From positions 1 through 34,637 of the forward strand of contig JAFXEU010000050.1 of NCBI GenBank assembly GCA_017520845.1: a stretch of 34,637 nucleotides of DNA, written 5' to 3'. How positions within the stretch are numbered: position 1 is the first letter of the stretch; the number at the start of each line of letters is the position of its first letter. The notes beneath the pieces were generated by a model. It did no database searches. It had not been told where the DNA came from and saw nothing but the letters and a program-made list of their open reading frames with translations. This document shows positions 12,933 to 34,367 of this stretch, piece after piece. The translations under genes and the position numbers were made by a program. The DNA is from Kiritimatiellia bacterium. Its GTDB lineage: Bacteria > Verrucomicrobiota > Kiritimatiellia > RFP12 > UBA1067.

Positions 12933-12950
12933 ACGCCCCCATGGGGGCGT
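12933..12950. other. 18-bp perfect palindrome inside the IS, upstream of the transposase
   Basis: ACGCCCCCATGGGGGCGT is fully self-complementary. It lies between the right end of the IS and the transposase start. On RNA entering from outside it would form a strong hairpin ahead of the transposase gene, as other insertion sequences do to stop read-through expression; that role is inferred. Confidence 0.5.
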
Positions 12951-13065
12951 TCCTTCCTTCGTTTTTCCTTCTTTTTTCGTTCTCTGTCTTTTTTCTTCAG
13001 AGCATCCTTTCGCCACCTCGACAACTTACCTTTCCGATTTGACTCATTTAATTGTACAACTTTCG

Positions 13066-16639: not shown

Positions 16640-17851
16640 TCAAAGCGCATCGGACTGATGGCGATGAGGCTTCCGGTGAGATGTTCGCAAGCGGCTGCGG
16701 CGCCATTTTTCCGGAGTGGTGCCGAAATGGGCGGCGAACATGTGCGCAAAGTACTGCGGCGAGGGATACCCGCATCTGTCGGCTATTTCCGCGGCCGTAA
16801 GAGATGTGTCCTTAAGAAGCCTGCATGCCGATTCGCGCCGGTATCTTATGATTTCCTGCTGGACGCTCAAGCCGAGCTCTCTGCGGAAAACTTTCCCGAC
16901 GGTCGTGTGGGAATACCCGAGATGCGCGATCACGTCGTTCGCCGATATGCCGTCGCCGATATGCCGGCGAATGTACACGAGCGCGTCGGACAGCCACGGT
17001 GTCCTGGTGGGATAGAAGGCGGTTGACGTCCGTTCGATGACGCCTGCCGGTTTGTGCATCGTGACCATGGGCGGAACGCAAGAAGGGTTTGAAAGCATCA
17101 GGTTCAGGGCTTTCGCGGCGTTCTGTCCGAGAGCGAACGAATCGGTGTCTATGCTCGACAGCGGAGGGTTGGAGAACGTGCAGAGAACCTTGTCGTTATC
17201 GACTCCGAGAACAGACACTTCCTGCGGCACTTTTATTTTCGCGTCGTTGCAGGCTTTCAGAAAATGAAACGCCCGCATGTCGTTGCAGCAGAATACCGAT
17301 ATCGGTTTCGGCAGCGACTTCGCCCATTTCCGCAGTGCCGTGCAATCGGAGCAAACATCCATCCGTTCGTTCCGCACGGACGTTTCTTTCAGAGGTCCGC
17401 CGCCTCCGTCGTACATTATGCATGACATGCCGAAACCGGCCACGGCTTTTTTAAAGGCTTTGCCCCTCGCTTCGGAAAAACGCAGCCCCGGGAATCCGCA
17501 GAAAGCGTAATTGGTGAATTTGTGCTCGCGGAAGAATTTCGCGGCGCATTCCGCTATCGCGACGTCGTCGAGCCGGATAAAAGGTATCTTGCCGACATCG
17601 TTTTTCCCGTATGTGTCTATCGCCGGCTTTTTTGTTTTGATGAGCAGATTTGCGGTCGTATCGTCCATTACGCGCAGGATGAAGCCGCTGAATCGCTTTG
17701 TGTTCGCGGAATTCGCGAGGCTCTTCAGGTCTATGCTTTCCAATCGCCAGTCGGTGTTGAGAAGCGCGTAATCGGCGATGCCTTCGATCATCGAGCGCCC
17801 GTGCGCACGGTTGGTTTCCACTTGAACGGCGATGATGGTCTCTTTTTTCAT
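16640..17851 (-). CDS. XylR-type transcription regulator (LacI-like sensor plus AraC DNA-binding domain)
   Basis: 403 residues from the ATG whose first base is 17851 (M-K-K-E-T-I-I-A-V-Q-V-E); the open frame extends six codons to a TTG. The first about 275 residues resemble a periplasmic-binding/LacI effector domain (F-R-E-H-K-F-T-N-Y-A-F-C-G-F-P-G, I-S-V-F-C-C-N-D-M-R-A, V-S-V-L-G-V-D-N-D). The C-terminal about 100 residues are an AraC-type double helix-turn-helix (V-I-A-H-L-G-Y-S-H-T-T-V-G-K-V-F-R-R-E-L-G, then A-E-I-A-D-R-C-G-Y-P-S-P-Q-Y-F-A-H-M-F). It is divergent from the GH88 gene with a 132-nt intergenic space. By position it should sense a uronide and control the catabolic genes. Confidence 0.9.
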   Translation of the reverse strand: MKKETIIAVQVETNRAHGRSMIEGIADYALLNTDWRLESIDLKSLANSANTKRFSGFILRVMDDTTANLLIKTKKPAIDTYGKNDVGKIPFIRLDDVAIAECAAKFFREHKFTNYAFCGFPGLRFSEARGKAFKKAVAGFGMSCIMYDGGGGPLKETSVRNERMDVCSDCTALRKWAKSLPKPISVFCCNDMRAFHFLKACNDAKIKVPQEVSVLGVDNDKVLCTFSNPPLSSIDTDSFALGQNAAKALNLMLSNPSCVPPMVTMHKPAGVIERTSTAFYPTRTPWLSDALVYIRRHIGDGISANDVIAHLGYSHTTVGKVFRRELGLSVQQEIIRYRRESACRLLKDTSLTAAEIADRCGYPSPQYFAHMFAAHFGTTPEKWRRSRLRTSHRKPHRHQSDAL

Positions 17852-17983
17852 TGCGGACAAGGATACCAAACGGTTTCAGAAAAAGCAATCGAAAACTTCA
17901 GATATGGCAATATACTTCAGACGTGCCGAGTGTTATACTTAAAGAGCACGCTCGCCAATGACAAAAGAAAGGGTGTTCTATCC
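17852..17983. promoter_or_regulatory. Divergent regulator/GH88 intergenic region with a direct repeat
   Basis: TATACTT occurs twice in the same orientation, at 17911-17917 and 17934-17940, exactly 23 bp apart. AraC-family proteins bind tandem half-sites about two helical turns apart, so this may be the operator. TATACT at 17934-17939 could serve as the -10 for GH88 but has no good -35, consistent with an activator-dependent promoter. Confidence 0.35.
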
Positions 17984-19186
17984 ATGAAAAAGAGACTGTT
18001 TCTGATCGGTTCCGTTTTGACGTTATCTGGCTTTGCTCAAGATTCCGCGCTTGCGAATTTGAAAAGCCGTTTGCCTGAGATTTTTTCTGCGTGCGCGGCG
18101 CACTACAAGGCGTTGGACGCGGCGGTGACCCCGCTCATGAAGAATGCGAAGGGGCAGACGATGGTTCCGCATGGGTACAAGCGCGGCAAGAAGATGTATG
18201 ACATGCGCAGAATCGAGTGGTGGACCTCCGGGCATTTTCCGGGGTCGCTCTGGTATCTCTACGAGGCTACGGGAGACGGCTTTTTCAAGGAGCGCGCGAG
18301 CGTCTGGACGGAAAACCTCAAGCCGATTTCGACGTACAAGGGGAATCATGACATCGGCTTTATGATGTACTGCTCTTTCGGCAACGCCCGACGTCTCCTC
18401 AAGACGGAGAAATACGATCATCTTCTCGTTGAAGCGGCAAATACGCTCTGCCTTCGCTTTGAACCGGAACTCGGCCTTATCCGCAGCTGGGGGAAGACCG
18501 ACGACAAGAAGGACTTTCTTGTCATACCCGACAACATGATGAACCTCGAGCTTCTCGAATGGGCGGCAAAAGCGAAGAACGGCGAAAAGCGCTTTGCGGA
18601 GGTGGCGCGTTCACACGCGGACGTCACGATGAAGAATCATTTCCGCACGGACGGCGGCACGTATCATGTGCTCAACTATTCGCAGAAGGATCTTCGCGTT
18701 CAGGAAATCCGCCGCGGACAGGGCGCGAGCTGTTTCACCGCCTGGAGCCGCGGGCAGAGCTGGGCGATCTACGGCTATACGATGATGTACCGCGAGTCCG
18801 GCGACAAGGCGTATCTCGACTTCGCGCAGAAGGTGGCGGATTTCGCGATCAACCATCCGAACATGCCTGAGGACGGCATTCCGTACTGGGACTATGGTGC
18901 GCCCGGCGAGGAGCGCGATTCATCGGCAGGGGCGATCATGGCGTCGGGGCTTCTGGAGCTTTCGAAGTTTGTCGATGCGAAGAAGGGCGCGATATACCGC
19001 GATTTTGCCGTAAAGCAGCTCGTCTCGCTCGCATCGCCCGCCTATTTCTCCGAAGGAGACGAGGTCGGTCATTTTCTCTTGAAGCACGGTGTCGGACACA
19101 AGCCCGGCAACAGCGAGATCGACACGCCTCTCAACTACGGCGACTACTACTTCCTCGAGGCGCTCGTAAGAGTCCGCGATATGTAG
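17984..19186 (+). CDS. Unsaturated glucuronyl hydrolase, GH88 family, exported
   Basis: 400 residues from ATG 17984 (GAAAGGG at 17967-17973). The much longer open frame to 17522 is antisense to the regulator and is rejected. Signal peptide about 1-19 (M-K-K-R-L-F-L-I-G-S-V-L-T-L-S-G-F-A). GH88 enzymes hydrate and release the 4,5-unsaturated uronic acid left by polysaccharide lyases. Both catalytic aspartates are visible: Asp123 in H-D-I-G-F and Asp183 in P-D-N-M-M-N-L. Also typical are W-W-T-S-G-H-F-P-G (79-87) and the substrate-binding R-G-Q-S-W-A-I-Y-G-Y. The product, a 4-deoxy-5-keto-uronate, is the substrate of KduI encoded two genes downstream. First gene of the uronide operon. Confidence 0.9.
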   Translation: MKKRLFLIGSVLTLSGFAQDSALANLKSRLPEIFSACAAHYKALDAAVTPLMKNAKGQTMVPHGYKRGKKMYDMRRIEWWTSGHFPGSLWYLYEATGDGFFKERASVWTENLKPISTYKGNHDIGFMMYCSFGNARRLLKTEKYDHLLVEAANTLCLRFEPELGLIRSWGKTDDKKDFLVIPDNMMNLELLEWAAKAKNGEKRFAEVARSHADVTMKNHFRTDGGTYHVLNYSQKDLRVQEIRRGQGASCFTAWSRGQSWAIYGYTMMYRESGDKAYLDFAQKVADFAINHPNMPEDGIPYWDYGAPGEERDSSAGAIMASGLLELSKFVDAKKGAIYRDFAVKQLVSLASPAYFSEGDEVGHFLLKHGVGHKPGNSEIDTPLNYGDYYFLEALVRVRDM

Positions 19187-19234
19187 TTTCCGCCGCCGGT
19201 GAATTGCGCGGTGCCGTATGAAATTAAAATTGTC

Positions 19235-20602
19235 ATGAAAGAAATATTCGCATATATCATAGGTCTCGGTGCGGCGGTGATGATGCCTGTCATCTTCTCC
19301 GTGCTTGGGATGTGTATCGGAATCAAGCCGGCAAAGGCGGTGAAGAGCGGCCTTCTGGTCGGTGTGGGCTTTGTGGGGCTGGGCGTAGTCACCGCGCTTC
19401 TGACGGCAAATCTCGGCCCTGCGCTCAAGGGAATGACGGAGCTTTATCAGCTCAATCTTCCTTTCTTCGACCTTGGCTGGCCTGCCGCCGCGGCTGTCGC
19501 CTATTCCTGCGCCGTAGGGGCGTTCATCATCCCCGTGTGCCTTGGCGTGAATGTCCTCATGCTCGTCATCGGCGTTACGCGCACGGTCAACATCGACCTC
19601 TGGAACTACTGGCACTTCGCCTTTCTCGGCGCGATGGTGTTCTTCGCCAGCGGTTCGCTCGCCTGGGCGTTCTACGCGGCGATCATGCTGTACATAATCA
19701 CGATGTGCATGGCCGACTTCACCGCGAAGAGGTTTCAGTCCTACTACAAGGACATGGAGGGCATATCCATCCCGCAGCCGTTCTGCCAGAGCTTTACGCC
19801 GTTCGCCGTCACGGTGGGCTGGCTTCTTGACCGCATCCCCGGATTCGAGAAGCTCAACATCGACGCGGAAGGTCTCCGCAGGAAGTTCGGTCTTTTCGGC
19901 GAGCCGCTCTTCCTCGGCGTCGTGATCGGTTGCGGAATCGGCGCGCTCAGATGCGATTCGCTCAAGGGTGCGGTCGAATCAATCCCGTCCATCCTCAAGC
20001 TCGGCGTGACGGTCGGCGCGGTCATGGAGCTCATCCCGCGCATCACCGCGCTTTTCATCGAGGGACTGAAGCCGATCTGCGAACAGACGCGCGGTTTCGT
20101 GGAGAAGCGCTTCTCCGGACTGAAGGGGCTTTCGATCGGCATGTCGCCCGCGCTCGTCATAGGGCATCCGACGACGCTTGTGGTGTCGATCCTTCTCATT
20201 CCTGTGATTCTTTTCCTCTCCGTCGTGCTGCCCGGAAACAAGTTTCTGCCGCTCGCGTCGCTGGCGGGAATGTTCTATCTCTTCCCGTGCGTGCTTCCCG
20301 TCACGAAGGGCAATGTCGCGAAGACCTTCATCGTCGGCATCGTCGCGCTTGTCTGCGGACTGTATTTCGTGACGGACTTGACGCCCGCGTTCTCCAAGGC
20401 GATCGCCGCCGCGAATGTGGACGGAATCACCGTTCCGCAGGGGTTTGAAGGCGGGGCGTCCATCGATTTCGCCGCCGCTTTCTGGTGCTGGACGCTCTTC
20501 CATTTGACGGTCACGTTCAAGTGGATCGGCGCGGCTCTCCTTGCGCTGATTGCCGCCGCCATGTGCGCAATCAATTTCATCCGCATCAGGAGGAACAGCT
20601 AA
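19235..20602 (+). CDS. GatC-like PTS EIIC permease
   Basis: 455 residues from ATG 19235 (M-K-E-I-F-A-Y-I-I-G-L-G); the frame is open to a GTG at 19199. Neither start has a clear ribosome-binding site. Many hydrophobic segments (M-M-P-V-I-F-S-V-L-G, F-V-G-L-G-V-V-T-A-L-L, F-I-I-P-V-C-L-G-V-N, P-V-I-L-F-L-S-V-V-L-P) and the overall pattern match the galactitol EIIC family. No EIIA or EIIB domain is fused or encoded nearby. Orphan GatC-like permeases next to uronide genes may work as non-phosphorylating transporters, or borrow EIIA/EIIB from elsewhere. By position it should import the deoxy-keto-uronate made by GH88/KduI. It lies 48 nt after GH88. Confidence 0.85.
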   Translation: MKEIFAYIIGLGAAVMMPVIFSVLGMCIGIKPAKAVKSGLLVGVGFVGLGVVTALLTANLGPALKGMTELYQLNLPFFDLGWPAAAAVAYSCAVGAFIIPVCLGVNVLMLVIGVTRTVNIDLWNYWHFAFLGAMVFFASGSLAWAFYAAIMLYIITMCMADFTAKRFQSYYKDMEGISIPQPFCQSFTPFAVTVGWLLDRIPGFEKLNIDAEGLRRKFGLFGEPLFLGVVIGCGIGALRCDSLKGAVESIPSILKLGVTVGAVMELIPRITALFIEGLKPICEQTRGFVEKRFSGLKGLSIGMSPALVIGHPTTLVVSILLIPVILFLSVVLPGNKFLPLASLAGMFYLFPCVLPVTKGNVAKTFIVGIVALVCGLYFVTDLTPAFSKAIAAANVDGITVPQGFEGGASIDFAAAFWCWTLFHLTVTFKWIGAALLALIAAAMCAINFIRIRRNS

Positions 20603-20636
20603 AATTACTTCTAAGAACTAGAAAGAAGGATAAAAA

Positions 20637-21581
20637 ATGATAAAGCATACACTCATTGCGCTGGCGGCGATGCCCATTGCGTTCGCGGCATCGGCCGAAA
20701 TCAACTACAAGGTCCAGGCCGCATCGCATCCTGATGATTTCAAAACGTTCGATACAGCTAAAATCCGCGAGCGTTTCGTTATGGAGAAGGTCATGTCGCC
20801 GGATGAGATAAACCTCACATACACGATGTACGACCGTCTCGTGTACGGCGGCGCGATGCCCGTCACCAAGGCGCTTGATCTTGAGACGTTTCCCGAACTC
20901 AAGGCCGCGAACTTCCTTGACCGGCGCGAACTTGGCGTCATCAACGTCGGCGGCGGCGGTGTCGTGACGGTTGACGGCGAGGAATATGCGCTCGACTTCA
21001 AGGAGGCGCTCTATGTCGGGTGCGGCAAGAAGAAGGTCGTGTTCAGGTCGAACGATTCGAAGAATCCCGCCAAGTTCTACCTCAACTCCGCTCCGGCGTA
21101 CAGGGAGTACGTGACGCAGCGCATCACAAGCGACCAGAAGTGCAAGAAGCCCGGCTACACCATCGGCAACTACATCAAGGCCGGTTCGCTCAAGGAGTCG
21201 AACGCGCGCTGCATCAATCAGCTCATCGTACAGAAGGTGCTCGCCAAGAAACCGGGCGGCGGATGCTGCCAACTGCAAATGGGTCTTACGGAGCTTGAGG
21301 AAGGCAGCGTGTGGAACACGATGCCGCAGCATACGCACAACCGCCGCATGGAGGCGTACTTCTACTTCAACGTCCCGAAGGGGCAGGCGATCTGCCATCA
21401 GATGGGCCGCCCGCAGGAGCAGCGTCTTGTGTGGCTCGGCAACGAGCAGGCCATCACCTCGCCCGAATGGAGCGTCCACTCCGCCGCCGGAACGTCGAAC
21501 TACATGTTCATCTGGGGCATGGCGGGCGAGAATCTCGACTATGGCGACATGGATAAGGTTCCCGTAGGCGAAATGAGGTAA
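20637..21581 (+). CDS. kduI: 5-keto-4-deoxyuronate isomerase with a signal peptide
   Basis: 314 residues; AAGGA (20626-20630) before ATG 20637. KduI converts 4-deoxy-5-ketouronate to 3-deoxy-2,5-diketogluconate. Zn ligands are all present: His232, His234 and Glu239 in [11 protein letters not shown], and His281 in [12 protein letters not shown]. The fold-typical [10 protein letters not shown] and [10 protein letters not shown] are also present. Unusually, residues 1-20 are a clean signal peptide ([20 protein letters not shown]), about 30 residues longer than the usual cytosolic KduI of about 278. This places the isomerase outside the cytoplasm with GH88 and the lyase. Confidence 0.93.
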
Positions 21582-21586
21582 AGAAT

Positions 21587-23563
21587 ATGAAAAAAATCGT
21601 TTTTTTTGTCATTGCGGCGATTTTCTTTGCCGGTCATTCCGACGCGCAGGGACTCTCCGAAAGCGTCAAACTTTATAGAACGAAGGGGTGTTCCGAACAC
21701 ATATCAAATCCGGGGAGGATTGAGCCGACACGTCATTCACTTGCATTCGAGAGTCCCGTAACCGAGGCGGAGATCACCCTGACCTTCACGGTCGCCGAGC
21801 CGCTTCCGTCTGCTTCGCATTTCCGGTCGCGCCCGGACAGCCGCGGTATTTCCGGGCGTCGTCGGGGGGCGTCCGCCGCTTCGGACACGGCAGATGCCGA
21901 CCGCGCGGCGGCAGGCGAAGTCACGGTCGTGAATGTGCCGTGGTCGTTTCCATCGAACAGAATCGACTGGCTGTTCAATCCCACCGAAGGGAAGAGGGCG
22001 TTCAATCCCGAGTGGACTTGGCAGCTGAACCGCATGTCATTCTGGATTGCGCTTGCCGAGGCGTACCGCAAGACGGGAGACGAGAAATACGCGCGCGCAT
22101 TCGTGCGGCAGTTCTCGGACTGGTTGGCGCAGACGGGCGGCGTTCCTCCGGAAAAGGGCTTCAATACGGTCGGATCGCCATGGCGCACGATTGAGGAGGG
22201 TCTTCGTCTTCTTGGTTCCTGGAGTGTCGCGTTCGAGACGTTCCGCAAGTCTCCGGCTTTCACCGATGAGCTTCTGCTTGCGTTCGTCCGCAGCGCCCGC
22301 GCACAGGCGAAACATCTCCTTGCTCACGGAACGAAGGGCAATTGGCTGCTTATGGAGATGACGGGTGTCTATGTGTTTGCCGTGCAGTTCCCTGAATTTC
22401 CGGATGCGGCGGCAATGCGCACGGAAGCGCTGCGCCGTTTCACCGCCGCCGCCGGCGCACAGCTTCTGCCGGACGGTCTGCATGACGAACTTTCTCCGGA
22501 TTACCACAATGTATTCTACTCGACGGCCGCCCGCATCTTTCATCTTGCGGCGGCCAACGGGCTGGAGGGCGAACTGCCGCCGGTGTTCAGGGACCTTCTC
22601 CGCCGCGGCGCAGAAGGCCCTCTTGCGATGATGACGCCCGGATTTGTGCAGCCCCGGTTCAATGACTGCTATACCATTCCGGTTTCTGCCGTGATGCGCA
22701 ATGCGCTTGCCGTATTCCCCGATCGCGAGGATTTCCGATGGGCATTGAGCAAGGGGCTTGAAGGCCGGCCTCCGGCGGGAGAGACGCCATCGCGTTTTTT
22801 GCCTTATGCGGGCTTTGCCGTGATGCGCGGCGGCTGGACGCCCGATGCCGCCTACCTTGCGTTCGACGTGGGTCCGCTTGGAATGGCGCACAGACATCAG
22901 GACAAGCTTTCGTTCACGATGTGGAAAGGCGGTGAGGAACTTGTGTTCGATGACGGCGGCGGGCAGTACGAGCGTTCCTGTTTCAGGTCGTATGCGTGTT
23001 CCGCCCACGCCCACAACACGCTTCTTGTCGATGGACTTGGACAGGCCCGCAAAGGTCCGGCGAAAATGAAGGCTCCCATTGAAGCGGGATGGGTGTCGAC
23101 CCCGGCCGGAGATGCGGCATTCGGCGTGTATGATCAGGGGTTCGGCCCGCAGGAGCGCCGTCTTGCGCGGCATCGCCGCGAGATCCGTTTTGACCGGCGG
23201 TCCGAGACCTTCACGGTGACGGACCGTGCGACGAGTGTGGACGGCAAGGAGCATGAATATACGCTTCTTTTTCACCTTGATACGACTAACGTTGTCATCT
23301 CGGCGGATGGACGCAGTCTGAACGCGACATACGGCGCCGGACGGAAATGGGCGCTTGAGATGATGTTCGACGGTGACGCCAGACTTTCGGTGTCGAAGGC
23401 GACGGGGCGAAAGACGCCTTCTCTGGCCGGGTGGTTTGTCGGGCGCAATGATCTTACCGTGCATCCCGCGACGACGGTGTTCGTCACCGCGCCGCGCGGA
23501 AAAGAACGGACGTTCACGACAAAACTAAGGCCCTATGTATCAGAGGCCCGTCATTCGTTATAA
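21587..23563 (+). CDS. Heparinase II/III-family polysaccharide lyase, exported
   Basis: 658 residues; the start is 5 nt after the kduI stop. Signal peptide M-K-K-I-V-F-F-V-I-A-A-I-F-F-A-G (1-20). Residues about 115-395 form the alpha/alpha-toroid (I-D-W-L-F-N-P-T, W-T-W-Q-L-N-R-M, G-T-K-G-N-W-L-L-M-E at 248-257, S-P-D-Y-H-N-V-F at 303-310 with the expected Tyr/His pair). About 405-650 is the beta-sandwich heparinase II/III domain with G-M-A-H-R-H-Q-D-K-L-S-F (432-443) and the metal-site loop Y-A-C-S-A-H-A-H-N-T. Such enzymes cleave uronate-containing polymers (heparan, chondroitin, hyaluronan or alginate) by beta-elimination. The substrate cannot be fixed here. An odd Arg/Ser/Ala-rich insert lies at about 80-108. 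Confidence 0.88.
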   Translation: MKKIVFFVIAAIFFAGHSDAQGLSESVKLYRTKGCSEHISNPGRIEPTRHSLAFESPVTEAEITLTFTVAEPLPSASHFRSRPDSRGISGRRRGASAASDTADADRAAAGEVTVVNVPWSFPSNRIDWLFNPTEGKRAFNPEWTWQLNRMSFWIALAEAYRKTGDEKYARAFVRQFSDWLAQTGGVPPEKGFNTVGSPWRTIEEGLRLLGSWSVAFETFRKSPAFTDELLLAFVRSARAQAKHLLAHGTKGNWLLMEMTGVYVFAVQFPEFPDAAAMRTEALRRFTAAAGAQLLPDGLHDELSPDYHNVFYSTAARIFHLAAANGLEGELPPVFRDLLRRGAEGPLAMMTPGFVQPRFNDCYTIPVSAVMRNALAVFPDREDFRWALSKGLEGRPPAGETPSRFLPYAGFAVMRGGWTPDAAYLAFDVGPLGMAHRHQDKLSFTMWKGGEELVFDDGGGQYERSCFRSYACSAHAHNTLLVDGLGQARKGPAKMKAPIEAGWVSTPAGDAAFGVYDQGFGPQERRLARHRREIRFDRRSETFTVTDRATSVDGKEHEYTLLFHLDTTNVVISADGRSLNATYGAGRKWALEMMFDGDARLSVSKATGRKTPSLAGWFVGRNDLTVHPATTVFVTAPRGKERTFTTKLRPYVSEARHSL

Positions 23564-23566
23564 CTT

Positions 23567-23608
23567 TAAACTCGTAACTCTAAACTCACAACTCCAAACT
23601 CACAACTC
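23567..23608 (+). repeat. 14-bp tandem repeat, three units, in the 5' leader of kduD
   Basis: TAAACTCGTAACTC, TAAACTCACAACTC and CAAACTCACAACTC in a row (23567-23580, 23581-23594, 23595-23608), then CAAACCATTATG. The stretch has only one G, so no Shine-Dalgarno sequence precedes kduD. Confidence 0.75.
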
Positions 23609-23617
23609 CAAACCATT

Positions 23618-24310
23618 ATGATTACATACGATCTTTCAGGAAAGACGGCTCTCGTCACAGGTTCCAACCGCGGCATCGGCAAGGCGATGGCGGACGCGCT
23701 CGAAGAAGCGGGCGCAAAGGTTATCCGCACGAGTTCCGCCGAATGTGACTTGAGCGACCGCGCGGCGCTCTACGCCTTCATCGGGAAGGTGAAGAAGGAA
23801 CATCAGATCGACATTCTCGTGAACAACGCGGGTACGATTCTCCGCACGCCCGCGGCGGAGCATCCCGACGAATACTGGGACAAGGTCATGAACGTGAACA
23901 TCAATTCGCAGTTCATCCTCGCCCGTGAGTTCGGCAAGGACATGGTCAAGCGCGGATACGGCAAAATCGTGTTCACCGCTTCGCTCCTCACGTTTCAGGG
24001 CGGCATTACGGTTCCCGGCTATGCGGCGTCGAAGGGCGCCGTCGGTCAGCTCGTCAAGGCTCTCGCGAACGAGTGGTCTTCGAAGGGCGTGAACGTGAAC
24101 GCCGTCGCGCCCGGCTACATCGCGACAGACAACACCGCCGCTTTGCGCGCAGATCCCGTGCGCTCTCGCCAGATTCTCGAGCGCATCCCGGCAGGACGCT
24201 GGGGCGAAGCCTCGGACATCGCTGGCGCATGCGTATTTCTCTGTTCGCCCGCGGCGGACTATGTGCACGGTGTCGTGCTGCCTGTCGACGGCGGCTGGCT
24301 CGCACGATGA
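23618..24310 (+). CDS. kduD: 2-dehydro-3-deoxy-D-gluconate 5-dehydrogenase, cytoplasmic
   Basis: 230 residues, short-chain dehydrogenase. It reduces 3-deoxy-2,5-diketogluconate, the KduI product, to 2-keto-3-deoxygluconate with NAD(P)H. Motifs: T-G-S-N-R-G-I-G (14-21), N-N-A-G (69-72), catalytic Ser122, Tyr135 and Lys139 in G-Y-A-A-S-K-G. The KduD-typical stretches E-Y-W-D-K-V-M-N-V-N, P-G-Y-I-A-T-D-N-T and D-G-G-W-L-A-R close to the C-terminus are all present. It is about 20 residues shorter than common KduD, with the loss around residues 38-50. No signal peptide, in contrast to KduI. The start has no Shine-Dalgarno; a 14-bp tandem repeat replaces it. Last gene of the uronide operon. Confidence 0.93.
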   Translation: MITYDLSGKTALVTGSNRGIGKAMADALEEAGAKVIRTSSAECDLSDRAALYAFIGKVKKEHQIDILVNNAGTILRTPAAEHPDEYWDKVMNVNINSQFILAREFGKDMVKRGYGKIVFTASLLTFQGGITVPGYAASKGAVGQLVKALANEWSSKGVNVNAVAPGYIATDNTAALRADPVRSRQILERIPAGRWGEASDIAGACVFLCSPAADYVHGVVLPVDGGWLAR

Positions 24311-24430: not shown

Positions 24431-24460
24431 TTGACCACGAATAAGGATGTTTGATAAAAT
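24431..24460 (+). promoter_or_regulatory. Promoter candidate for the first PATR-type surface protein
   Basis: TTGACC (24431-24436), 18-nt spacer, TAAAAT (24455-24460), about 95 nt before the ATG at 24555. AAGGAG at 24541-24546 is the ribosome-binding site. Confidence 0.5.
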
Positions 24461-24554
24461 TCTTGGCAGAATTGCGGTGTTGTGTTGTCGAAATAAAGAA
24501 TTAAAATTTAACTTTTCAACCTTGACTGATTAAAAAACATAAGGAGATAACATA

Positions 24555-27314
24555 ATGAATATAATTGCTAAAAAATCTCATGGGGGGGGGGGTAATATAT
24601 TAAGTTATCTCCTTGTGGGTGTGTTTGTACTTGCAACTTCAGGCCTTTGGGCGGCGGGGTTCTGGAAAGGGATTGGCGATGAGTCTGGTACTGCTGAAAA
24701 CTGGTCAAACGGCCATAGCTTCATGGACAATGATAATTTTTATTTCCGTGATTCTAAGATGATTGGAGCTGATGCCCGTCGCATCATGAGGTTAACTGCC
24801 AATGTCGATAACACGAACGGTCAGAAGGTTTTCTTTCAGTGCGGCACTGAGGATGAGCCATTTGTTGTGGATGATGATGGTGAAAAACGCGACATCAAGC
24901 TTAAAAGTAATATTTACGTAGGCCACAGTACGAATGCCGATAATACAAACTCAGACAAAACTGATGATGCTGGCTATTACGGCAGTGCTGTTCTAAACGG
25001 CGGAACTTGGACTTGCGTCCAGCTTTATGTTGGTTACGGATCGGAGTATACTGGGTATCTTCGTTTGAACGGCGCTTCGCTGACGGCAAGCGGCCAATCT
25101 GCTAATGATTTTGCCAACGGCAAGATTGTCGTGGACAACGGTACGTTGTCCTTTACGGGCGGAGATCTGTGTGTGGGTAAAGACAGTGGTTCTGCAGAAC
25201 TCGTAATTAACGGTGGTATTGTGTCCGTCGCAAAATGGATGAAGACATACGGCTACGGAAAGGGGTCCATAAGCTTGAACGGCGGCATGTTGCAGACGTG
25301 TCATATCCATGAATCAAGCGGGTCAACGACTGTTAACTTCAACGGAGGAATCCTTAAAGCGACTAAGGCCTATGCTTCACATGGAGGTCTTATTCATGGC
25401 AATGTTGACGTCAATGTCAAAGCTGGCGGCGGATGCATCGATAACGGCGGATACGATATCGAAATCTCAGCGCCTCTTGGTGGCAGCGGCGGTTTGACCT
25501 TTACCGGTACGGGCACGACCACGCTCGGCGGCGATGTCTCGTATGTGGGCAAGACATCTGTCACGCCAGGCACAATACTCAATATTACAAACTCCATAGC
25601 TAAGTCGACCATTCTTGGAACGCACGGACTTGTCGTTGCCGGCATCCCTTCGGTGGGCGACACTATTCTCACGTATACGGCAGACCTGACCGGCACCGAC
25701 CTCTCCAAGGTGACGTGCGCTATTGCCCCCGGAACCGAGTTCGAGATTGGCGGTGAAGGCAACAAGGCCATTGTCGTCAAGTCGGTCGGCCAATTGCTCG
25801 ACAACTGCTGGACGGGCGCGGCGAACGACGGCGACCTCAGCAACGCCGCCAACTGGTCGGCCGGCAATGTGCCGACGACCGGCAATGCCAATATTTTCAG
25901 CGCCGCGCCTGTGACGCTGACGAAGGGCGCGACCTTCGCGCCGACTTCCATTACATTCCTCGAAGGCAGTGCGGCGGTGACGATAGACGGCGACTTCACG
26001 ACCTTGACTGCCATCACCAACAGTTCGTCCGTAAAACAGACATTCTCCGGCAAGGTGGACTTTGGATCGCGCGATATCAATGTTGTTCAAAGCGGTGCCT
26101 ACGACGATTCTTCAAAATCGGTGACAGGGGGATTTGTTGTGTTTGCTGGTCTCGTAACCGGCAATAATATAGCTAATCATACCGTCTTCACCGGTAACTA
26201 CGAATTAACAACGGACGAAAAAATAAATTTCAAAACGTCTGGCTCAACCCGCGGCATAGTGAATGCCAATTCCACCCTTAGGGTTAAAAAAACGGATCAA
26301 ATTCAGGAACTCTACATTATGAGCGGAGCGAAATTCTATGTTAAGAATGCCTCGCACGGATGGAACTATTGGGATGATACAACCAATGGAAATCAAAATC
26401 ACCGTCTCTGGTACAGGAGTGCAGGCATGTTCATTGCCGACAGTTATGAGCTTACCGGCAACGGACGCATGTGGCTTGGAGGTTTTCTGAAAAAAACCGG
26501 AGATGATGTTGCCAACGCTAATGCGGTCTTGAAAATTGGAACACTAAAAATTCGCAGCAACGGGGCGATCATTTTGCATGGCTACGGCAATAAAGGTGAT
26601 GCGCTTACAACTTACATAGGCGAGGGCGGCGTCAATATTGAGTCTGGAAAGAAGGGATATTATTGGGTGGAGAATGATAAGCATGCTTCAACGTTGCGCC
26701 CTTGGAATTCGAACTTCACCTTCGGAAAGGGAGCGGGATCGGATTATGACTTACGCATTGGTAACGGTTGTTTTACTTTCCATACAGACGATGAGAGCGG
26801 TGTTGCAAAAGAGATTACGCTGGATGCCCGTATTAAGACAGACTCTGAATCATCATCTTTAGCAGTCAAAGGCGGTGGCGTGCTCAAGGTGACATCGGCC
26901 TCGCCGCTTATGACCGGTTCGACCGTCGTTAAGGACACGGCGACACTGATGTTTGGTCCGGACGCCGGTTTTGGCGAGTCCGGTACGGCAGGTGCGATTA
27001 CGCTCGGCGCAGGAACGACGCTTGCACTGACTGCCGTAAGCCGCGAGTTTTTGCCGCTCGCCAATGAGCTCAATCTGCCGATGGGCGAGAACGCGGTTGC
27101 GACCATACGTATCGACGGGAAACGTCTTCTCTCCGGCAACAATATTATCGCAACAGTCGGCAATGCGGCAACAACCGCCAATGTGAAACTTGACGTAGAC
27201 GGTTCAGCAATTGACGGACGCAGGGCGAAGCTGCGTGTTGTTAATGCGGATGACGGCAAAAAGAAACTGGAGCTTAATATAGAGCCGGAAGGATTTAAGG
27301 TGATTGTCAGGTAG
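24555..27314 (+). CDS. Autotransporter-type beta-strand-repeat (PATR-like) surface protein with an 11-G tract
   Basis: 919 residues from ATG 24555. Codons 10-13 are Gly encoded by eleven consecutive G; the hydrophobic signal core follows (Y-L-L-V-G-V-F-V-L-A-T-S-G-L-W-A-A). The rest is extended beta repeats: a W-K-G-I-G-D-E-S-G-T-A-E-N-W-S-N-G opening; G-G-S-G-G-L-T-F-T-G-T-G-T-T-T-L-G-G near 315-335, typical of passenger-associated repeats; a second W-T-G-A ... D-G-D-L-S-N-A-A-N-W-S module near 420; and G-G-G-V-L-K-V-T-S near 770. No C-terminal beta-barrel; the protein ends P-E-G-F-K-V-I-V-R. Likely a secreted or surface beta-helix or fibre. A change in G-tract length would shift the frame before the signal core and silence the gene. 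Confidence 0.85.
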   Translation: MNIIAKKSHGGGGNILSYLLVGVFVLATSGLWAAGFWKGIGDESGTAENWSNGHSFMDNDNFYFRDSKMIGADARRIMRLTANVDNTNGQKVFFQCGTEDEPFVVDDDGEKRDIKLKSNIYVGHSTNADNTNSDKTDDAGYYGSAVLNGGTWTCVQLYVGYGSEYTGYLRLNGASLTASGQSANDFANGKIVVDNGTLSFTGGDLCVGKDSGSAELVINGGIVSVAKWMKTYGYGKGSISLNGGMLQTCHIHESSGSTTVNFNGGILKATKAYASHGGLIHGNVDVNVKAGGGCIDNGGYDIEISAPLGGSGGLTFTGTGTTTLGGDVSYVGKTSVTPGTILNITNSIAKSTILGTHGLVVAGIPSVGDTILTYTADLTGTDLSKVTCAIAPGTEFEIGGEGNKAIVVKSVGQLLDNCWTGAANDGDLSNAANWSAGNVPTTGNANIFSAAPVTLTKGATFAPTSITFLEGSAAVTIDGDFTTLTAITNSSSVKQTFSGKVDFGSRDINVVQSGAYDDSSKSVTGGFVVFAGLVTGNNIANHTVFTGNYELTTDEKINFKTSGSTRGIVNANSTLRVKKTDQIQELYIMSGAKFYVKNASHGWNYWDDTTNGNQNHRLWYRSAGMFIADSYELTGNGRMWLGGFLKKTGDDVANANAVLKIGTLKIRSNGAIILHGYGNKGDALTTYIGEGGVNIESGKKGYYWVENDKHASTLRPWNSNFTFGKGAGSDYDLRIGNGCFTFHTDDESGVAKEITLDARIKTDSESSSLAVKGGGVLKVTSASPLMTGSTVVKDTATLMFGPDAGFGESGTAGAITLGAGTTLALTAVSREFLPLANELNLPMGENAVATIRIDGKRLLSGNNIIATVGNAATTANVKLDVDGSAIDGRRAKLRVVNADDGKKKLELNIEPEGFKVIVR
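24582..24592 (+). repeat. Homopolymeric tract of 11 G in the start of the PATR gene
   Basis: Eleven consecutive G starting 27 nt after the A of the start codon. A tract this long in a non-G-biased gene is the classic substrate of slipped-strand mispairing. Eleven G gives an open frame; ten or twelve would shift it. The exact length could also be a sequencing artefact. Confidence 0.85.
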
Positions 27315-28732: not shown

Positions 28733-31663
28733 ATGGTCGAAAGAAAGTCATTGTTCGCGGGTCTTTTCGCGTTCGTTTGTTCTTGGGCTTGGGCGGAAGT
28801 CATCGACCTCAACGGCTCTGCGCGCACGGTCGGCGCGGATGAATACGCCGCCGAATTTACGAACACTTCCGAAACACTCGCCGAACTGACGGTTGAGAAT
28901 ACCGAAGCCGCCGAATTTTCGGGTAAGATATCCGGCAATATCAAACTGGTGAAAGCGGGTGCCGGTCAACTTGATATCACGACCGTCAATGATTTTACGG
29001 GCGGGGTCGATCTCAGGGCTGGAATAATCAACTTCACCGTCGCCGGGTCACTCGGATCGGGAAAGGTGACGATTTCAAGTGGCGCGACACTACGACTTGG
29101 AGCAGCCGTTGAATGCTCCAACCCCATTCATTTGATGGCGAGTGGAAGTAAACTGATTTCTGCAAATGCTTCTTCTAAATTTATGGGAGATATTACAGGC
29201 GAAAGCGGGATCACTTTTACACCAGATCATTCTGGTAATAAAAAGCATTTTACTGTTTATGGAAGTGTAACGATTCCTGATGGCGTGGTGAAGGCCGCGT
29301 ACAGGCAAGAGACTTATGTAAATTTTCGTGGACCAGTGAAGGTTAAAGCAGTGGACGGCAATAATGGTGGTGGTCACGTTGCGGCATTTAGGTTTTATTC
29401 AAATGAAAACATGTGGCAATACTTTCAGTTTCGCCGGTATAATAATTCATCCTATGCTCCTTATTTCGCAGCCGGAGCCATTCCAGTGACAAGTTATATC
29501 AATATGAAAAACAGAACGAGTACCTCATATGGTTTTTCTATTGACGGTGATCAGTGTTTCAAATATTTACAGTTTACTACTCCAGATAAGGGCTGTGCTC
29601 ACTTAAAGGCTAATTCATTGTCGACTGTGACGCTTGGCTCTGAAGTTGAAGTTACTGGTAGCCAGAGTGGAACGGCATATATTTTTGAAGGATCTTCTTT
29701 AAGCCTCGTTTACTCTCCTGAAAACACTGATTCGCCATGGACGATTGCGTCTGGCACTTCTACGATGAAGGGAACGTTAACGGTTGAGAGAGGCATTCTT
29801 TCAATTGAAGGGTCTGCGACATTTGCGAATGTCCCGAAAATTACAGTCAATGAATCGGGTGTCTTTTCGTGCACATCAACGGGGACGACTCCTTTAAATT
29901 CCCTTAAACATATTGAGCTTTCTGAAGAGGCAACGTTCAATGTCGGCGAAGGAATTGAAATTTCTCTCGATTCATTCCTTGTTGACGGTAAGCCGCCAAG
30001 AGCTTTCGGCTGGTTTACGGGATCGGATAATGAAAATCCCGTAGAAGGCGACCAGAAGTCGATTCCGCAGATTAAAGGCACGGGCCGCATTTATATTCCT
30101 TTCCAAGGTAGTGCGACGGAGGCGACGTGGGACGGTGGTGCCGGTGAGAGCGATACGCTCGTGACGACGGCGGCGAACTGGGATGGCGACATGCTTCCTG
30201 ATTTTTCGGGCGGTCTGACCGCCACCTTCGCAACAGGCGGGAAAGTTGCAACGTTTACATCTGTATCGTCCTTAGACGCTATCAATTTTTCCGCAGAAGA
30301 AGGATTTACGTTGAACGCTCAAGACGAGAACGCAAAAGTCGTCTTGGCGAGCGGTATCGCGGTCGCTGAAAATTCCGGCGAAACGGTCGTTACCAACACG
30401 CTTGATGTGCCCTTTCACATGACTGGTGAACAAAATTGGCAGACGCCGGCGAATACGGTTCTTGAGATTCGCAAGCCGATTACATCAGAAACGAGTACTC
30501 TGTTTATATTGGGTGGCAGGGGAAGCTATGATATCTATTCGACGAACACATTTTCGGGGTCTGTTAAGTTGACAAACGGCCTGACGCGTGTGTTCACCAA
30601 GAGGGGAGCGTTTGGTGTGTCAGAGGACGGCAGTAATGTGGCATTGCAAAATAATCAAGGAGCCCGATTGACGCTTTATGGAACAGAGATTGACAAGCCG
30701 TTTACATTGAGTAAACCGGCGGGTAATAATGCCGGAGGACTGACATTTGCGGCAGGTGCAAGCAATGCCTTCCTCAAAGCGTTTACTGCTGGACATAACT
30801 GGACTCCTTCCCCAGCACATGGTGCCGTAATCGCCTTTTTAGGCGAAACGACAATAGGAAGTTATTTTCGTCCGGATATGACAGCCGGCAGCGTGAAGAT
30901 GATTTTTGGCGGTAGGGCTTCATTTGGGACAGGTTCTCAATTTTACGGCGGCACGACAGTATTTAAATCATCGTCCAATACTCTTGCTAATGTTGAAGGC
31001 ACTGATAAATCTCTTGTCTATGTTCGCGTGAATACCACGCTGGATTTGCAGGCTCCGGATTGCTTCAAGAATACTCCGAATGTGACGATGGCGAATCAAG
31101 AAGGACGAAACGAATCGTATATTCGTCTCAACGGCAACGATCAATCGTTCGGCAATTTGAATATCGTCAATCCTTACGGCTACATTACGACGCCTTCAGA
31201 TAAACCGGCGACATTTGCGTTTGACCAGACAAGTGATTGGACGCCACGTGCGGATGTCTTCCAAGGCCCGATCTCTCTTTCAAAGGGCGGTATGGCAACG
31301 GTGACAATCAACTCATCGATGCAGACAACAGGCGGCGATTTGACGGTGACCGGCGGTACGCTCGCGTTCGGCGAGAGCGGCGTTCTTTCGTCGGTCACGA
31401 ATATCACCGTCAGCGGCGAGGGATCGCTTGTGACGTTGGTGTCCAAAGCGAATCTGCCCAATCACAAGAAGTCGATTCTCCGTCTGAATGACGGCGGCAA
31501 GCTCCAGATCCCGTCCGGGATGAACTTGAAAGTGGCCGAACTCTACATCGATGGCAATAAGCGGCGGGACGGCAACTATACCGCCGGCAACGCGGCCGAT
31601 ATAGTCGCCGGCGAGGGTTCGCTCATTGTCGGTTCGCCTGCGTTTAAAATCATCATTCGGTAA
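28733..31663 (+). CDS. Second autotransporter-type beta-strand-repeat (PATR-like) surface protein
   Basis: 976 residues; a perfect AGGAGG (28721-28726) 6 nt before ATG 28733. Signal peptide M-V-E-R-K-S-L-F-A-G-L-F-A-F-V-C-S-W-A-W-A (1-21). Repeats such as V-K-A-G-A-G-Q-L-D-I-T-T-V-N-D-F-T-G-G-V-D-L near 77-98 and L-T-V-T-G-G-T-L-A-F-G-E near 880 are passenger-associated repeat type. A W-D-G-G-A-G-E-S-D-T ... A-A-N-W-D-G module (near 463) parallels the W-T-G-A module of the first protein. No beta-barrel; it ends S-P-A-F-K-I-I-I-R, matching F-K-V-I-V-R of the other. There is no poly-G tract here. The next gene begins 1 nt after its stop. Confidence 0.85.
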   Translation: MVERKSLFAGLFAFVCSWAWAEVIDLNGSARTVGADEYAAEFTNTSETLAELTVENTEAAEFSGKISGNIKLVKAGAGQLDITTVNDFTGGVDLRAGIINFTVAGSLGSGKVTISSGATLRLGAAVECSNPIHLMASGSKLISANASSKFMGDITGESGITFTPDHSGNKKHFTVYGSVTIPDGVVKAAYRQETYVNFRGPVKVKAVDGNNGGGHVAAFRFYSNENMWQYFQFRRYNNSSYAPYFAAGAIPVTSYINMKNRTSTSYGFSIDGDQCFKYLQFTTPDKGCAHLKANSLSTVTLGSEVEVTGSQSGTAYIFEGSSLSLVYSPENTDSPWTIASGTSTMKGTLTVERGILSIEGSATFANVPKITVNESGVFSCTSTGTTPLNSLKHIELSEEATFNVGEGIEISLDSFLVDGKPPRAFGWFTGSDNENPVEGDQKSIPQIKGTGRIYIPFQGSATEATWDGGAGESDTLVTTAANWDGDMLPDFSGGLTATFATGGKVATFTSVSSLDAINFSAEEGFTLNAQDENAKVVLASGIAVAENSGETVVTNTLDVPFHMTGEQNWQTPANTVLEIRKPITSETSTLFILGGRGSYDIYSTNTFSGSVKLTNGLTRVFTKRGAFGVSEDGSNVALQNNQGARLTLYGTEIDKPFTLSKPAGNNAGGLTFAAGASNAFLKAFTAGHNWTPSPAHGAVIAFLGETTIGSYFRPDMTAGSVKMIFGGRASFGTGSQFYGGTTVFKSSSNTLANVEGTDKSLVYVRVNTTLDLQAPDCFKNTPNVTMANQEGRNESYIRLNGNDQSFGNLNIVNPYGYITTPSDKPATFAFDQTSDWTPRADVFQGPISLSKGGMATVTINSSMQTTGGDLTVTGGTLAFGESGVLSSVTNITVSGEGSLVTLVSKANLPNHKKSILRLNDGGKLQIPSGMNLKVAELYIDGNKRRDGNYTAGNAADIVAGEGSLIVGSPAFKIIIR

Positions 31664-31664
31664 A

Positions 31665-34367
31665 ATGAAACGAAAATTACTGGTTACGGTTTTCGCGCTC
31701 GGTTTGAGTGTCGCCGCGCGGGCCGGGGCCTGGGACTTTCACGGGGCTGAGCGGGAGATCACTTGCGCGAGATCGCTTAAATCCGAAAAAATTAATGGCG
31801 CCTTTACATTGGAACTGAGGCTGTCGCCCAAAGCCTTTGAAAAGGCGCAGGGCGAAGGTATGGTCTGCTCGTGGGGCAACGGTTACAACAACGGCTGGAG
31901 ACTTGTGTTCACGAAGGCGAAAGGCGGCTATCGCGCGGCGTTTTCGCTCGGGCATGAGGACGGCAAGCGCGGCGGCGTGCGATTCGTCGGTGCGCTCCCG
32001 ACGAACGTGTGGACGACGCTCGCCGTCACGTTCGACGGAGCGCGTGTCAATCTCTACCGCGACGGCGTCTGGAACGCCACCGCCGACCGTCCGCACGGCT
32101 TTGCGCCCGCACATCCCGCCCAGTTGGCCCTCGGCGGCGCACGTTGCGGCATTTCGTTTTTTCCGTTCGACTGCTCGCGCGCCGAGCTTCTGCCGCGCGC
32201 GTTGACGGCCGATGAAATCGCGGCGCGTTATATGGGGGCTGTCCCCAAGAGCGAATGGCCGGCTTCCTTTCGGCGGCGGAAGGCTGATGCCGATTTGGCG
32301 CACGGGCGTTTTGACGCGGCGGCGGAAGGGTATGCGGAATTGTACCGCGAAGCCTGCCTGCGTGTCTCCCCTCATCGCGCCGAGATCGCTTTCGCCTATG
32401 CCGATGCGCTCGCGCAAGGCGGAAAAGCCGAGGAAGCGAAAAACGTCTGCCGCGAAATCGCCGCCGCGACGGATCTGCCGCTGTATCTGACGCGCGAGGC
32501 CGCGGAGAAGGCGGGGCTTCCCGATCCGCATCCCGCGGCGCCGCTTCCGACGGTCTCCGCCTGGCGGCCGGCGGCGCGGACGGACTGCGTGTATGTGATC
32601 GCGACGAACGGCAGCGATGCGGCGGCCGGGACGCCCGCCGCGCCTCTGGCGACGCTCGGTGCGGCGCTTGAGCGCGTGCGTGCGCGCGTCGCCGAAGACG
32701 GGTGGCCGACGGGTGGGGTGCAGATCGTTCTGCGCGGCGGGCGCTATCAGATGGCGGAAACGTGCGAGTTGACGGCGGCCGATTCCGGTGCGCCGGGTGC
32801 GCCGCTCGTGATTTGCGCCTGGCCGGGTGAGACGGTCGTCTTCGATGGGGCGCGCGAGGTGACGGCGTGGCGTCAGCCGACGGAGGAAGAGGCGTCGCGA
32901 CTGGCGTCTGCGGCGCGCTCGCACGTGCGCGTCGCCGATCTCCCGGAGGCGGTTTTCGGCGAACTGCCGCCGCTTCAGCCCTACGGTTACGGCCGCAGAG
33001 GCGGCAAGATGATCGATCTGTCGGAGGACGGGCGACTGCTCACCTCGGCGCGTCATCCGAATGCGGGGTTTGCCGTCGTCACCGCGTCCGACCGCGAGAC
33101 GTTCACCGCCGATTTCGGCGATCTGTCGGGATGGGAGAACGAAAAGAACGTCTTCGCCACCGGTTACTGGTGGAATTTCTGGTCGGATCGGACGCTGGCC
33201 GTCGCGTCGATCGATCCGGCGGCGAACACCGTGACGCTTGCGGCGGGCGAGCCCCGGAAAAAAGCGGACGGCCGGGCGATCAGGAAAGGGGCGGCCGTTT
33301 TCCTCACAAATGCGCTTCGGGCGCTGGATGCGCCGGGCGAATGGTATCTCGACCGAGACGCGCGCAAACTTTATGTCTGGCCGCGTTCTGCGGCGTCTGT
33401 GCGCTTCGCGCTCAATACGCGTGACGGTGCGTTTTTCCGCTTGGCCGGCGCGCGGTCTGTCGTTCTGAAAGACCTTGTCTTCGAGGGGACGTGTTCGACG
33501 GCTGTGACGATGGATTCGGTGAGCGATATCTGGGTCAAGGGCTGCACGTTCCGTCTGTGCGGTCGCGGGGGCGTGCGGGCGTCGGGCGCGCGCGTGCGCA
33601 TCGATTCGTGCCGGTTCTACGATCTCGGTAGAAGCGCGGTTTCGCTTTCCGGCGGGTCGCGCGAGACGTTGTCGCGCGCCGACAATCTGGTGATCGACTG
33701 CGAGGCGTTCAATCTCGGCCGTCACTGGCGGACGTATTCGCCGGCGGTGCACGCGACCGGCTGCGGGATCGACATCGTCGCCAACCGTTTCCACGATCTG
33801 CCCTCAAGCGCGATCCGCGCCGACGCGAACGACGTGCGCGTCGTCTCGAACCGCATCTGGCGGTGCGTGCTTGAAAGCGACGATCAGGGGGCGTTCGACA
33901 TCTACGCCAATCCGACGTTTGCCGGTGTCGAGATCGCCGACAACGTCTGGGAGGATATCGGCGGAGGCGATATCGCCCATACGGGGCAGGCCGCGGTTCG
34001 CTTGGATGATATGATCTGCGGCGTCGTCATCCGGGGCAACCGGTTCGTCCGCTGCGGCCGCGGGATTTTCGGCGCGGTGCAGGTCAACGGCGGAAGACGC
34101 AATTTCATCGACGGCAACGCGTTTGTCGATTGCCGGCTGGATGTTTCGGTTCAGAGCAAAAGCGCGGCCAAGTGGGCCGGCCTTTGCCGACGTTATGCGC
34201 ATCTCTTTGCCTCTCCCGTCTACAACGCGCGGTATCCGGGCTTTTCGGCGTTGCCGTCGGCGCCGCCGGAGAATTATGTCTGGCGCAGCCGGCTCGAGGG
34301 CGTTTCTCGCAGCATCAGGCCGCGGGCGTTTTCCGTTTCTCCGCCCGGAGAACGGACGGCGCCGTAG
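31665..34367 (+). CDS. Exported LamG plus right-handed beta-helix protein (GH141-like or pectate-lyase-like)
   Basis: 900 residues from ATG 31665, one base after the upstream stop (TAAAATG); the open frame from 31626 lies inside that gene. Signal peptide M-K-R-K-L-L-V-T-V-F-A-L-G-L-S-V-A-A-R-A (1-20). Residues about 25-190 are a LamG/concanavalin-like domain (W-T-T-L-A-V-T-F-D-G, ending L-T-A-D-E-I-A-A-R-Y). About 205-300 is a helical TPR-like linker. From about 320 is a beta-helix: V-I-A-T-N-G-S-D-A-A-A-G-T, I-V-L-R-G-G-R-Y, A-P-G-E-W-Y-L-D-R-D-A-R-K-L-Y-V-W-P, then many short N-x-F/C-x-F coils to about 850. The W-Y-L-D ... L-Y-V-W-P pattern recalls GH141-type enzymes. It may bind or cleave plant or host glycans. 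Very GC-rich. Confidence 0.8.
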   Translation: MKRKLLVTVFALGLSVAARAGAWDFHGAEREITCARSLKSEKINGAFTLELRLSPKAFEKAQGEGMVCSWGNGYNNGWRLVFTKAKGGYRAAFSLGHEDGKRGGVRFVGALPTNVWTTLAVTFDGARVNLYRDGVWNATADRPHGFAPAHPAQLALGGARCGISFFPFDCSRAELLPRALTADEIAARYMGAVPKSEWPASFRRRKADADLAHGRFDAAAEGYAELYREACLRVSPHRAEIAFAYADALAQGGKAEEAKNVCREIAAATDLPLYLTREAAEKAGLPDPHPAAPLPTVSAWRPAARTDCVYVIATNGSDAAAGTPAAPLATLGAALERVRARVAEDGWPTGGVQIVLRGGRYQMAETCELTAADSGAPGAPLVICAWPGETVVFDGAREVTAWRQPTEEEASRLASAARSHVRVADLPEAVFGELPPLQPYGYGRRGGKMIDLSEDGRLLTSARHPNAGFAVVTASDRETFTADFGDLSGWENEKNVFATGYWWNFWSDRTLAVASIDPAANTVTLAAGEPRKKADGRAIRKGAAVFLTNALRALDAPGEWYLDRDARKLYVWPRSAASVRFALNTRDGAFFRLAGARSVVLKDLVFEGTCSTAVTMDSVSDIWVKGCTFRLCGRGGVRASGARVRIDSCRFYDLGRSAVSLSGGSRETLSRADNLVIDCEAFNLGRHWRTYSPAVHATGCGIDIVANRFHDLPSSAIRADANDVRVVSNRIWRCVLESDDQGAFDIYANPTFAGVEIADNVWEDIGGGDIAHTGQAAVRLDDMICGVVIRGNRFVRCGRGIFGAVQVNGGRRNFIDGNAFVDCRLDVSVQSKSAAKWAGLCRRYAHLFASPVYNARYPGFSALPSAPPENYVWRSRLEGVSRSIRPRAFSVSPPGERTAP
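32233..32250 (+). repeat. REP-like palindrome inside the coding sequence
   Basis: GGGGGCTGTCCCC (12 of 13 identical to the REP core) followed by AAGAGCGA. It is read in frame as G-A-V-P-K-S exactly at the LamG/linker boundary. Confidence 0.4.

Follow-up and report, generated by a model that had tools for sequence, protein, structure and literature searches.

A poly-G tract at the start of an exported-protein gene in gut Kiritimatiellia, and related tracts in its genus: a candidate phase-variation switch

The tract gene and its surroundings

The window analysed here (the whole stretch of 34,637 nucleotides of contig JAFXEU010000050.1, assembly GCA_017520845.1) belongs to a Kiritimatiellia genome, G000 (2.74 Mb, 116 contigs), which is congeneric with the gut metagenome-assembled genomes RGIG4421 and RGIG2266, also Kiritimatiellia. 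It contains an open reading frame that carries, shortly after its start codon, a run of eleven G. The features of this gene and of its downstream sister are the following:

24431–24460, + strand: promoter-like site, TTGACC – 18 nt – TAAAAT with TG ahead of the -10 (consensus scan, weak)
24541–24546, + strand: Shine-Dalgarno-like AAGGAG, 8 nt 5' of the ATG (read from the sequence)
24555–27314, + strand: ORF P0001, 919 aa, predicted exported all-beta surface protein (translation, AlphaFold2, weak Foldseek matches)
24555–24581, + strand: leader of nine codons, MNIIAKKSH, start of an extended signal-peptide n-region (translation)
24582–24592, + strand: poly-G tract, 11 G, a length at which the frame is open (on); proposed slippage switch
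24593–24595, + strand: first stop trap, TAA, reached at once if the tract gains one base (stop distance 0 codons)
24594–24656, + strand: signal-peptide hydrophobic core and cleavage region, NILSYLLVGVFVLATSGLWAA, present only in the open frame (translation; hydrophobicity 2.6)
24601–24603, + strand: second stop trap, TAA, reached if the tract loses one base (stop distance 2 codons)
27291–27314, + strand: C-terminal tail GFKVIVR and stop codon, common to many exported proteins of G000
28733–31663, + strand: sister exported protein P0002, 976 aa, ending in FKIIIR; comparison gene without a switch

The leader DNA reads ATG-AAT-ATA-ATT-GCT-AAA-AAA-TCT-CAT and leads directly into the eleven G. Codon 10 begins at 24582, and the tract spans codons 10–12 together with two bases of codon 13 (GGG GGG GGG GGT), exactly where the initial annotation had put it, ahead of the hydrophobic core. 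The same annotation had claimed that slippage by one base would close the frame, and this is borne out by two TAA codons, 0 and 2 codons beyond the tract, that close the alternative frames. The promoter-like site matches the consensus at 10 of 12 positions, with one such site found against 0.5 expected in shuffles.

The AlphaFold2 model of P0001 is all-beta (mean pLDDT 78.6), and its best Foldseek matches are autotransporter passengers, although weak ones (E 1e-4, TM 0.16). No Pfam family matches the protein at E<=0.1. We did not class it as a type Va autotransporter, because no C-terminal translocator beta-barrel was found; the beta strands are followed by the short tail GFKVIVR. It gives no match to the PATR model (PF12951) and, with respect to PEP-CTERM, no NCBIfam match at E<=0.1, its tail having no transmembrane stretch. 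The gene had originally been described as encoding a long beta-repeat surface protein of PATR type. The PATR label finds no Pfam support for P0001, weak as well as all-beta though its structural resemblance to autotransporter passengers is: only the sister P0002 matches PATR, and weakly (19.5 bits versus a cut-off of 27 in Pfam; 19.9 versus 19.85 for NCBIfam TIGR02601). The sister was correctly said to have no tract, with none at its start or upstream. A protein search of 39 genomes of the genus returned no close orthologue of P0001 (relatives reach at most 54% identity, none of them syntenic by inspection), and no related locus was found in the collection of named genomes.

Just 5' of the tract gene, at 17522–24310, lies a run of genes with matches to PTS EIIC-GAT permease, KduI, heparinase II/III and a KduD-like dehydrogenase, seemingly a cluster for breaking down uronate or glycosaminoglycan. 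Further upstream, at 11798–13024 on the minus strand, is a gene with an integrase core domain (rve), a transposase-like element. In a stretch of 67% G+C, a long open frame at 31626–34367 (+) overlaps another at 31677–33794 on the minus strand, and the latter has no Pfam match.

Abundance and placement of long G tracts

The eleven-G run is the longest G/C run in the window, and the second longest has 7 (464 runs of 3, 104 of 4, 20 of 5, 2 of 6, 1 of 7 and one of 11). In 100 dinucleotide shuffles of the window, 0.67 matches to eight G were expected; the 4 overlapping matches observed were reached in 1 of the 100 shuffles. Judged from the window alone, a chance origin of the tract is thus unlikely but possible. 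At the scale of the genome the excess is far beyond chance. G000 holds 29 tracts of at least nine G, with lengths of 9–18, versus 18 runs of exactly seven; since long runs outnumber those of seven, they form a separate population rather than the tail of a random distribution.

We then considered the position of these tracts relative to genes, taking in all 29 of G000 and 16, 23, 21 and 23 from four congeneric genomes, 112 in total. The comparison genomes (G002, G026, G009 and G122) were picked for their many pattern hits, not randomly, with G074 and G101 left out and 23 of the 24 counted tracts of G026 included. A tract was considered to adjoin a gene start if it lay between -70 and +300 bp from the start of a gene with a signal-peptide-like hydrophobic core in its first 40 residues. 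Tracts too near contig ends were set aside, leaving 91 of the 112 for the placement analysis, and 103 on the G strand and 100 on the C strand for the strand analysis. Across the five genomes, such a gene start adjoins 39 of the 91 tracts, compared to 51 of 2268 positions drawn at random from these loci; the corresponding controls were 0 of 102 for runs of 5–6 G/C and 120 of 1326 for positions along the window. Moreover, placement depends on strand, with a signal-peptide-like gene start following the tract on the G strand in 25 of 103 cases and on the C strand in 6 of 100. By the same rule, 52 of the 91 tracts are not beside such a start, some of them being dispersed repeats, and we count this against the switch reading.

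These placements bear on whether two-colour sequencing chemistry or metagenome assembly could have produced the tracts as artefacts. All the genomes are indeed fragmented metagenome assemblies, and some runs do sit at contig ends (L243 of G009, a G24 with 0 bases after it, and likewise L241). However, most tracts are internal, with unique coding flanks (that of the window is 24.5 kb into its contig), homologous tracts occupy the same codon position in independent assemblies (the window, G002 and G022; G009 and G122), and their placement relative to genes and strands is non-random. We thus regard an artefactual origin as very improbable; exact tract lengths in the assemblies may err by one base.

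More poly-G tracts had been anticipated at the starts of similar genes, and two kinds were found. The first kind lies within the leader, as in the window gene, and comprises 24 genes in six congeneric genomes. Eight of these genes, all with the plan of the window gene, are in G000, and leaders of the same plan occur in homologues or relatives from G002 and G022. The second kind is promoter-proximal and lies ahead of other signal-peptide genes of G000, 60–290 bp 5' of the gene start and often as poly-C on the coding strand. Promoter poly-G or poly-C switches operate on the tpr genes of Treponema pallidum and the fim genes of Bordetella. The upstream tracts of G000 resemble them in lying 5' of the start codon of a surface protein, and we presume by inference that they act on transcription.

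Other tracts lie elsewhere. Dispersed intergenic repeats are present in 9–10 copies in G026 (L190, L200, L203, L204, L206, L207, L210, L214, L215) and in 4–5 copies in G002 (L171, L196, L197, L199), and every copy holds a G tract of 9–14 at the same place. At L045 1501–1509 (G000:C68:44107), nine G lie in frame within the gene of an Eco57I/N6-type DNA methylase, which makes this restriction-modification gene a candidate for phase variation.

G tracts of at least ten are present in 57 of 58 relatives. The pattern SD-ATG-N15-45-G9 occurs in 64 of the 161 genomes of the order, compared to 28 of 161 for the reversed control: 20 of 61 in the genus (control 5), 29 of 53 in the rest of the family (13) and 15 of 47 in the rest of the order (10). 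These are genome counts only; minus-strand match counts tally one tract several times. As a marker outside the order we rejected the pattern: 84 of 240 genomes of the phylum match, but many of the matches listed fall in plain G-rich DNA without the leader plan, and the reversed control is frequent too. We therefore claim the system for the genus and family only.

Reading-frame states, stops and length changes in leader genes

The 24 leader genes (8 in G000, 4 in G002, 7 in G122, 2 in G026, 2 in G009 and 1 in G022) share a common plan: an ATG, a leader of 24–51 nt, the G tract and a signal peptide. The set was compiled by hand from genomes picked as rich in hits, and it consists in part of related genes. 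We left out L024/L256, without a clear leader, L001 and L242, without a long frame in phase, four loci as short (the first ORF of L088, 48 aa; L261, 60 aa; L262, 59 aa; the first copy of L269, 35 aa), and duplicates (L169 of L268, L225 of L270, L223 of L266, L228 of L265, and other shorter stretches of listed genes). Tract lengths range from 9 to 15. In 10 of the 24 genes the start is in frame with the long frame downstream, and in 14 it is out of frame. Of the eight in G000, two are in frame (the window gene and L254) and six are out of frame (L008, L251, L252, L253, L255 and L257); such mixed on and off states within one genome are the expectation for a random switch.

This mixture is difficult to reconcile with a stable, invariant tract that merely encodes a glycine linker in the n-region of the signal peptide. 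The frame of the window gene is open and its four glycines would be harmless, and in some homologues an interrupted tract still occupies this site (the second gene of L088, MKARTANIHRGVGKVVNYLLA), as a linker would allow. Nonetheless, stable linkers would be in frame, yet 14 of the 24 genes are not; lengths of 9–15 occur, homologues with constant flanks differ in length, and a linker would not require an uninterrupted run of G. A mere linker is therefore highly unlikely.

The tract is interrupted or lost in the homologues L100 (G000:C92), L088 1477- and L110 (G000:C35), which carry MSLITCKNLRGSDGL, MKARTANIHRGVGK and SPQRGKTLSYLLA, respectively, and are perhaps locked-on descendants. Separately, L088 1–220 (G002:C91) is a mini-ORF in which the leader, G10 and signal peptide are soon followed by the C-terminal tail QGLIFFFN (48 aa past the tract), as though a deletion had removed the body.

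The closed frames of the leader genes are short. Their median length beyond the tract is 2 codons, and 30 of the 48 end within 4. As a control, out-of-frame readings begun further along these genes continue for a median of 25 codons, with 122 of 862 stopping within 4. A TAA stands directly after the tract in 10 of the 24 genes. The associated p-value (2e-12) overstates the evidence, because the leaders are partly related, but the effect is nonetheless large.

The strongest rival to a heritable switch is slippage of RNA polymerase or of the ribosome at each round of expression, by which every cell would make some in-frame protein and the tract would act as a damper. It also predicts a free mix of in-frame and out-of-frame lengths, as seen here (10 on, 14 off). 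Nevertheless, the immediate stops that follow the tract in either closed frame are better explained by an on/off switch, and tract lengths differ between near-identical copies, so that the length of the DNA itself does change. On balance we consider expression-time slippage improbable, with a small chance of being correct.

Such length changes are apparent among related leaders, where, as had been proposed, tract length varies amid near-constant flanks and the on/off state differs. L253 and L254 have the identical leader MNLITCKKS and are 86% identical across ~390 bp of upstream DNA, with 11 G (off) versus 10 G (on). L259 and L101 have a common leader plan, with 12 G (off) versus 10 G (on), and L040 and L041 have G9 versus G13. 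The clearest comparison is between orthologues from two species-level genomes:

G009 contig JAFUEM010000034.1, Kiritimatiellae bacterium RGIG4421: orthologue in the off state, 13 G
G122 contig JAFQYM010000025.1, RGIG2266: orthologue in the on state, 11 G

Their leaders are identical save for the tract, and they show 94% identity over the next 1.5 kb. Along the alignment of 4227 columns the tract differs by 2 nt, and all other coding indels are of 3, 6 or 18 nt; the remaining one-base gaps occur only in upstream DNA and at the alignment edge. The low dN/dS of the pair (0.073/0.338, or 0.22) indicates that the off gene has not decayed.

It follows that out-of-frame genes are hardly dying pseudogenes with tracts as mutational scars. 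Some loci do have only short frames after the tract, of 35–60 aa (the first copy of L269, L088, L261 and L262), as decay would produce. In contrast, the out-of-frame leader genes retain frames of 333–1357 codons, and the one testable pair is under purifying selection, with frame-preserving indels everywhere save at the tract. We consider decay extremely improbable.

Taken together, the best explanation for the tract, and a very probable one from comparative sequence evidence, is a slipped-strand phase-variation switch acting on translation. P0001 has the attributes of the poly-G translational phase-variable class in carrying at least nine G in its 5' coding part (11 G) and in having its frame closed by a one-base change, and relatives of its class differ in tract length with the rest of the frame kept (the G11/G13 orthologues). 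In the sequence itself, a ribosome-binding site and ATG open a short leader that leads into the G tract. A third of all tract lengths keep the frame open through the signal peptide and body, and the remainder hit stops 0 and 2 codons on. According to the model, replication slippage would add or remove G, leaving each lineage heritably on (at 11 G, the assembled state) or off, and in the off state no protein would be made and export would be lost. Many exported proteins of the genus carry such a tract, either in the leader (a translational switch) or upstream of the start codon (presumably a transcriptional one). A population should therefore hold many surface-protein combinations.

G000 has full-length mutS1 and mutL, the genes for mismatch repair; slippage would therefore be slower than in bacteria without them, and we count this against the switch. 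Loss of mismatch repair as a driver was in turn rejected, given these two genes and their detection above cut-off in 17 of 20 (mutS1) and 16 of 20 (mutL) genomes of the genus, the misses being incomplete assemblies.

Shared 5' DNA, exported targets and known systems

Homology between tract loci of one genome often spans the upstream DNA, the leader and the tract, and ends shortly after. L048 and L054 are 86% identical over ~390 bp, stopping 15 bp past the tract; L031 and L032, the latter out of frame, are 89% identical over 131 bp, stopping at the tract; L237 and L238 are 93% identical over 122 bp. L008 (DUF2341), L255 (beta helix) and L257 (LRR_5) have only the leader and first residues in common. 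Similarly, the proteins of L253 and L254 are alike only in short stretches (32–35%), and L251 and L252 are distant relatives (25%). This pattern suggests that 5' units, consisting of the leader and upstream DNA, were copied or exchanged in front of different genes. At L198/L262 (G002:C74:3187), a surface-protein-type leader lies left of the tract and the right half of a dispersed repeat follows it; this is either a chimera with its junction at the tract or a misassembly.

The bodies behind the leaders are diverse. Pfam matches, some of them below curated cut-offs, include DUF2341, Laminin_G_3, InlB-type repeats, GDSL lipase, beta helix, LRR_5, F5/8 type C, PATR and the sialidase N-terminal domain; one congeneric tract gene, L266, passes the PATR cut-off (28.5 bits). 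We tentatively put forward, at somewhat short of an even chance, that a portable phase-variation module (upstream DNA, ribosome-binding site, short leader, poly-G and stops in both closed frames) has been copied before many exported proteins with lectin-like, leucine-rich-repeat, beta-helix, lipase and autotransporter-like bodies, in an uncultured gut family of Kiritimatiellia. Together with the upstream tracts, it would give independent random control of a class of surface proteins with a GxxxVIVR-like tail, and millions of surface states per genome. With stops built into it, the shared leader would also be a natural and economical means of switching translation tightly.

In Neisseria pilC, the tract is located in the signal-peptide region. 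PMC5953494 lists pilC as a genic poly-G, G(9-20); it uses at least nine as its poly-G cut-off and counts 15–19 such tracts in each genome of N. meningitidis, N. gonorrhoeae and N. lactamica. The genes described here are like pilC in that the coding frame of a surface-related protein contains a G run of comparable length. They are unlike it in that a single genus repeats the plan across a wide variety of exported proteins, whose genes have leader and upstream DNA in common. The genome-wide set of G000 (29 tracts of at least nine) is comparable to the phasomes of Campylobacter and Neisseria; C. jejuni NCTC11168 has 29 G-tract loci of seven or more (PMC4965091). Whereas the Campylobacter targets are largely surface-glycan enzymes (PMC8437040), those found here are the exported proteins themselves. 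At the level of the phylum, the closest relative for which slippage phase variation has been suggested in print is Akkermansia muciniphila, in which tracts of >8 bp were reported in 17 genes, the highlighted genes making capsule (PMC3048395). Capsule phase variation in Akkermansia was later demonstrated to occur by DNA inversion (PMC13343947). A literature search, with most subscription papers outside its scope, found no publication joining Kiritimatiellia or Kiritimatiellota with phase variation. The mechanism of the poly-G switch is thus already known; the host group, the scale, the shared 5' module, the stop-trap design and the exported-protein targets look new.

Slippage switches have been studied mostly in pathogens of people. 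If our reading is right, a family-wide set in abundant uncultured gut commensals would make random surface switching a commensal strategy as well, acting on exported proteins themselves, and strain-level surface variation in gut communities would become testable from existing metagenome reads.

The C-terminal tail extends beyond the tract genes. As a DNA pattern for G-x-x-[VI]-I-[VI]-R it is found 24 times in G000, versus 0 for the reversed control, in proteins with and without tracts; the sites in the window are at 27291–27314 and 31643–31663. Four genes of the upstream class also end with a GFKVIVR-like tail. Its recurrence at the ends of these proteins points to what is possibly an undescribed signal, and route, for export or anchoring.
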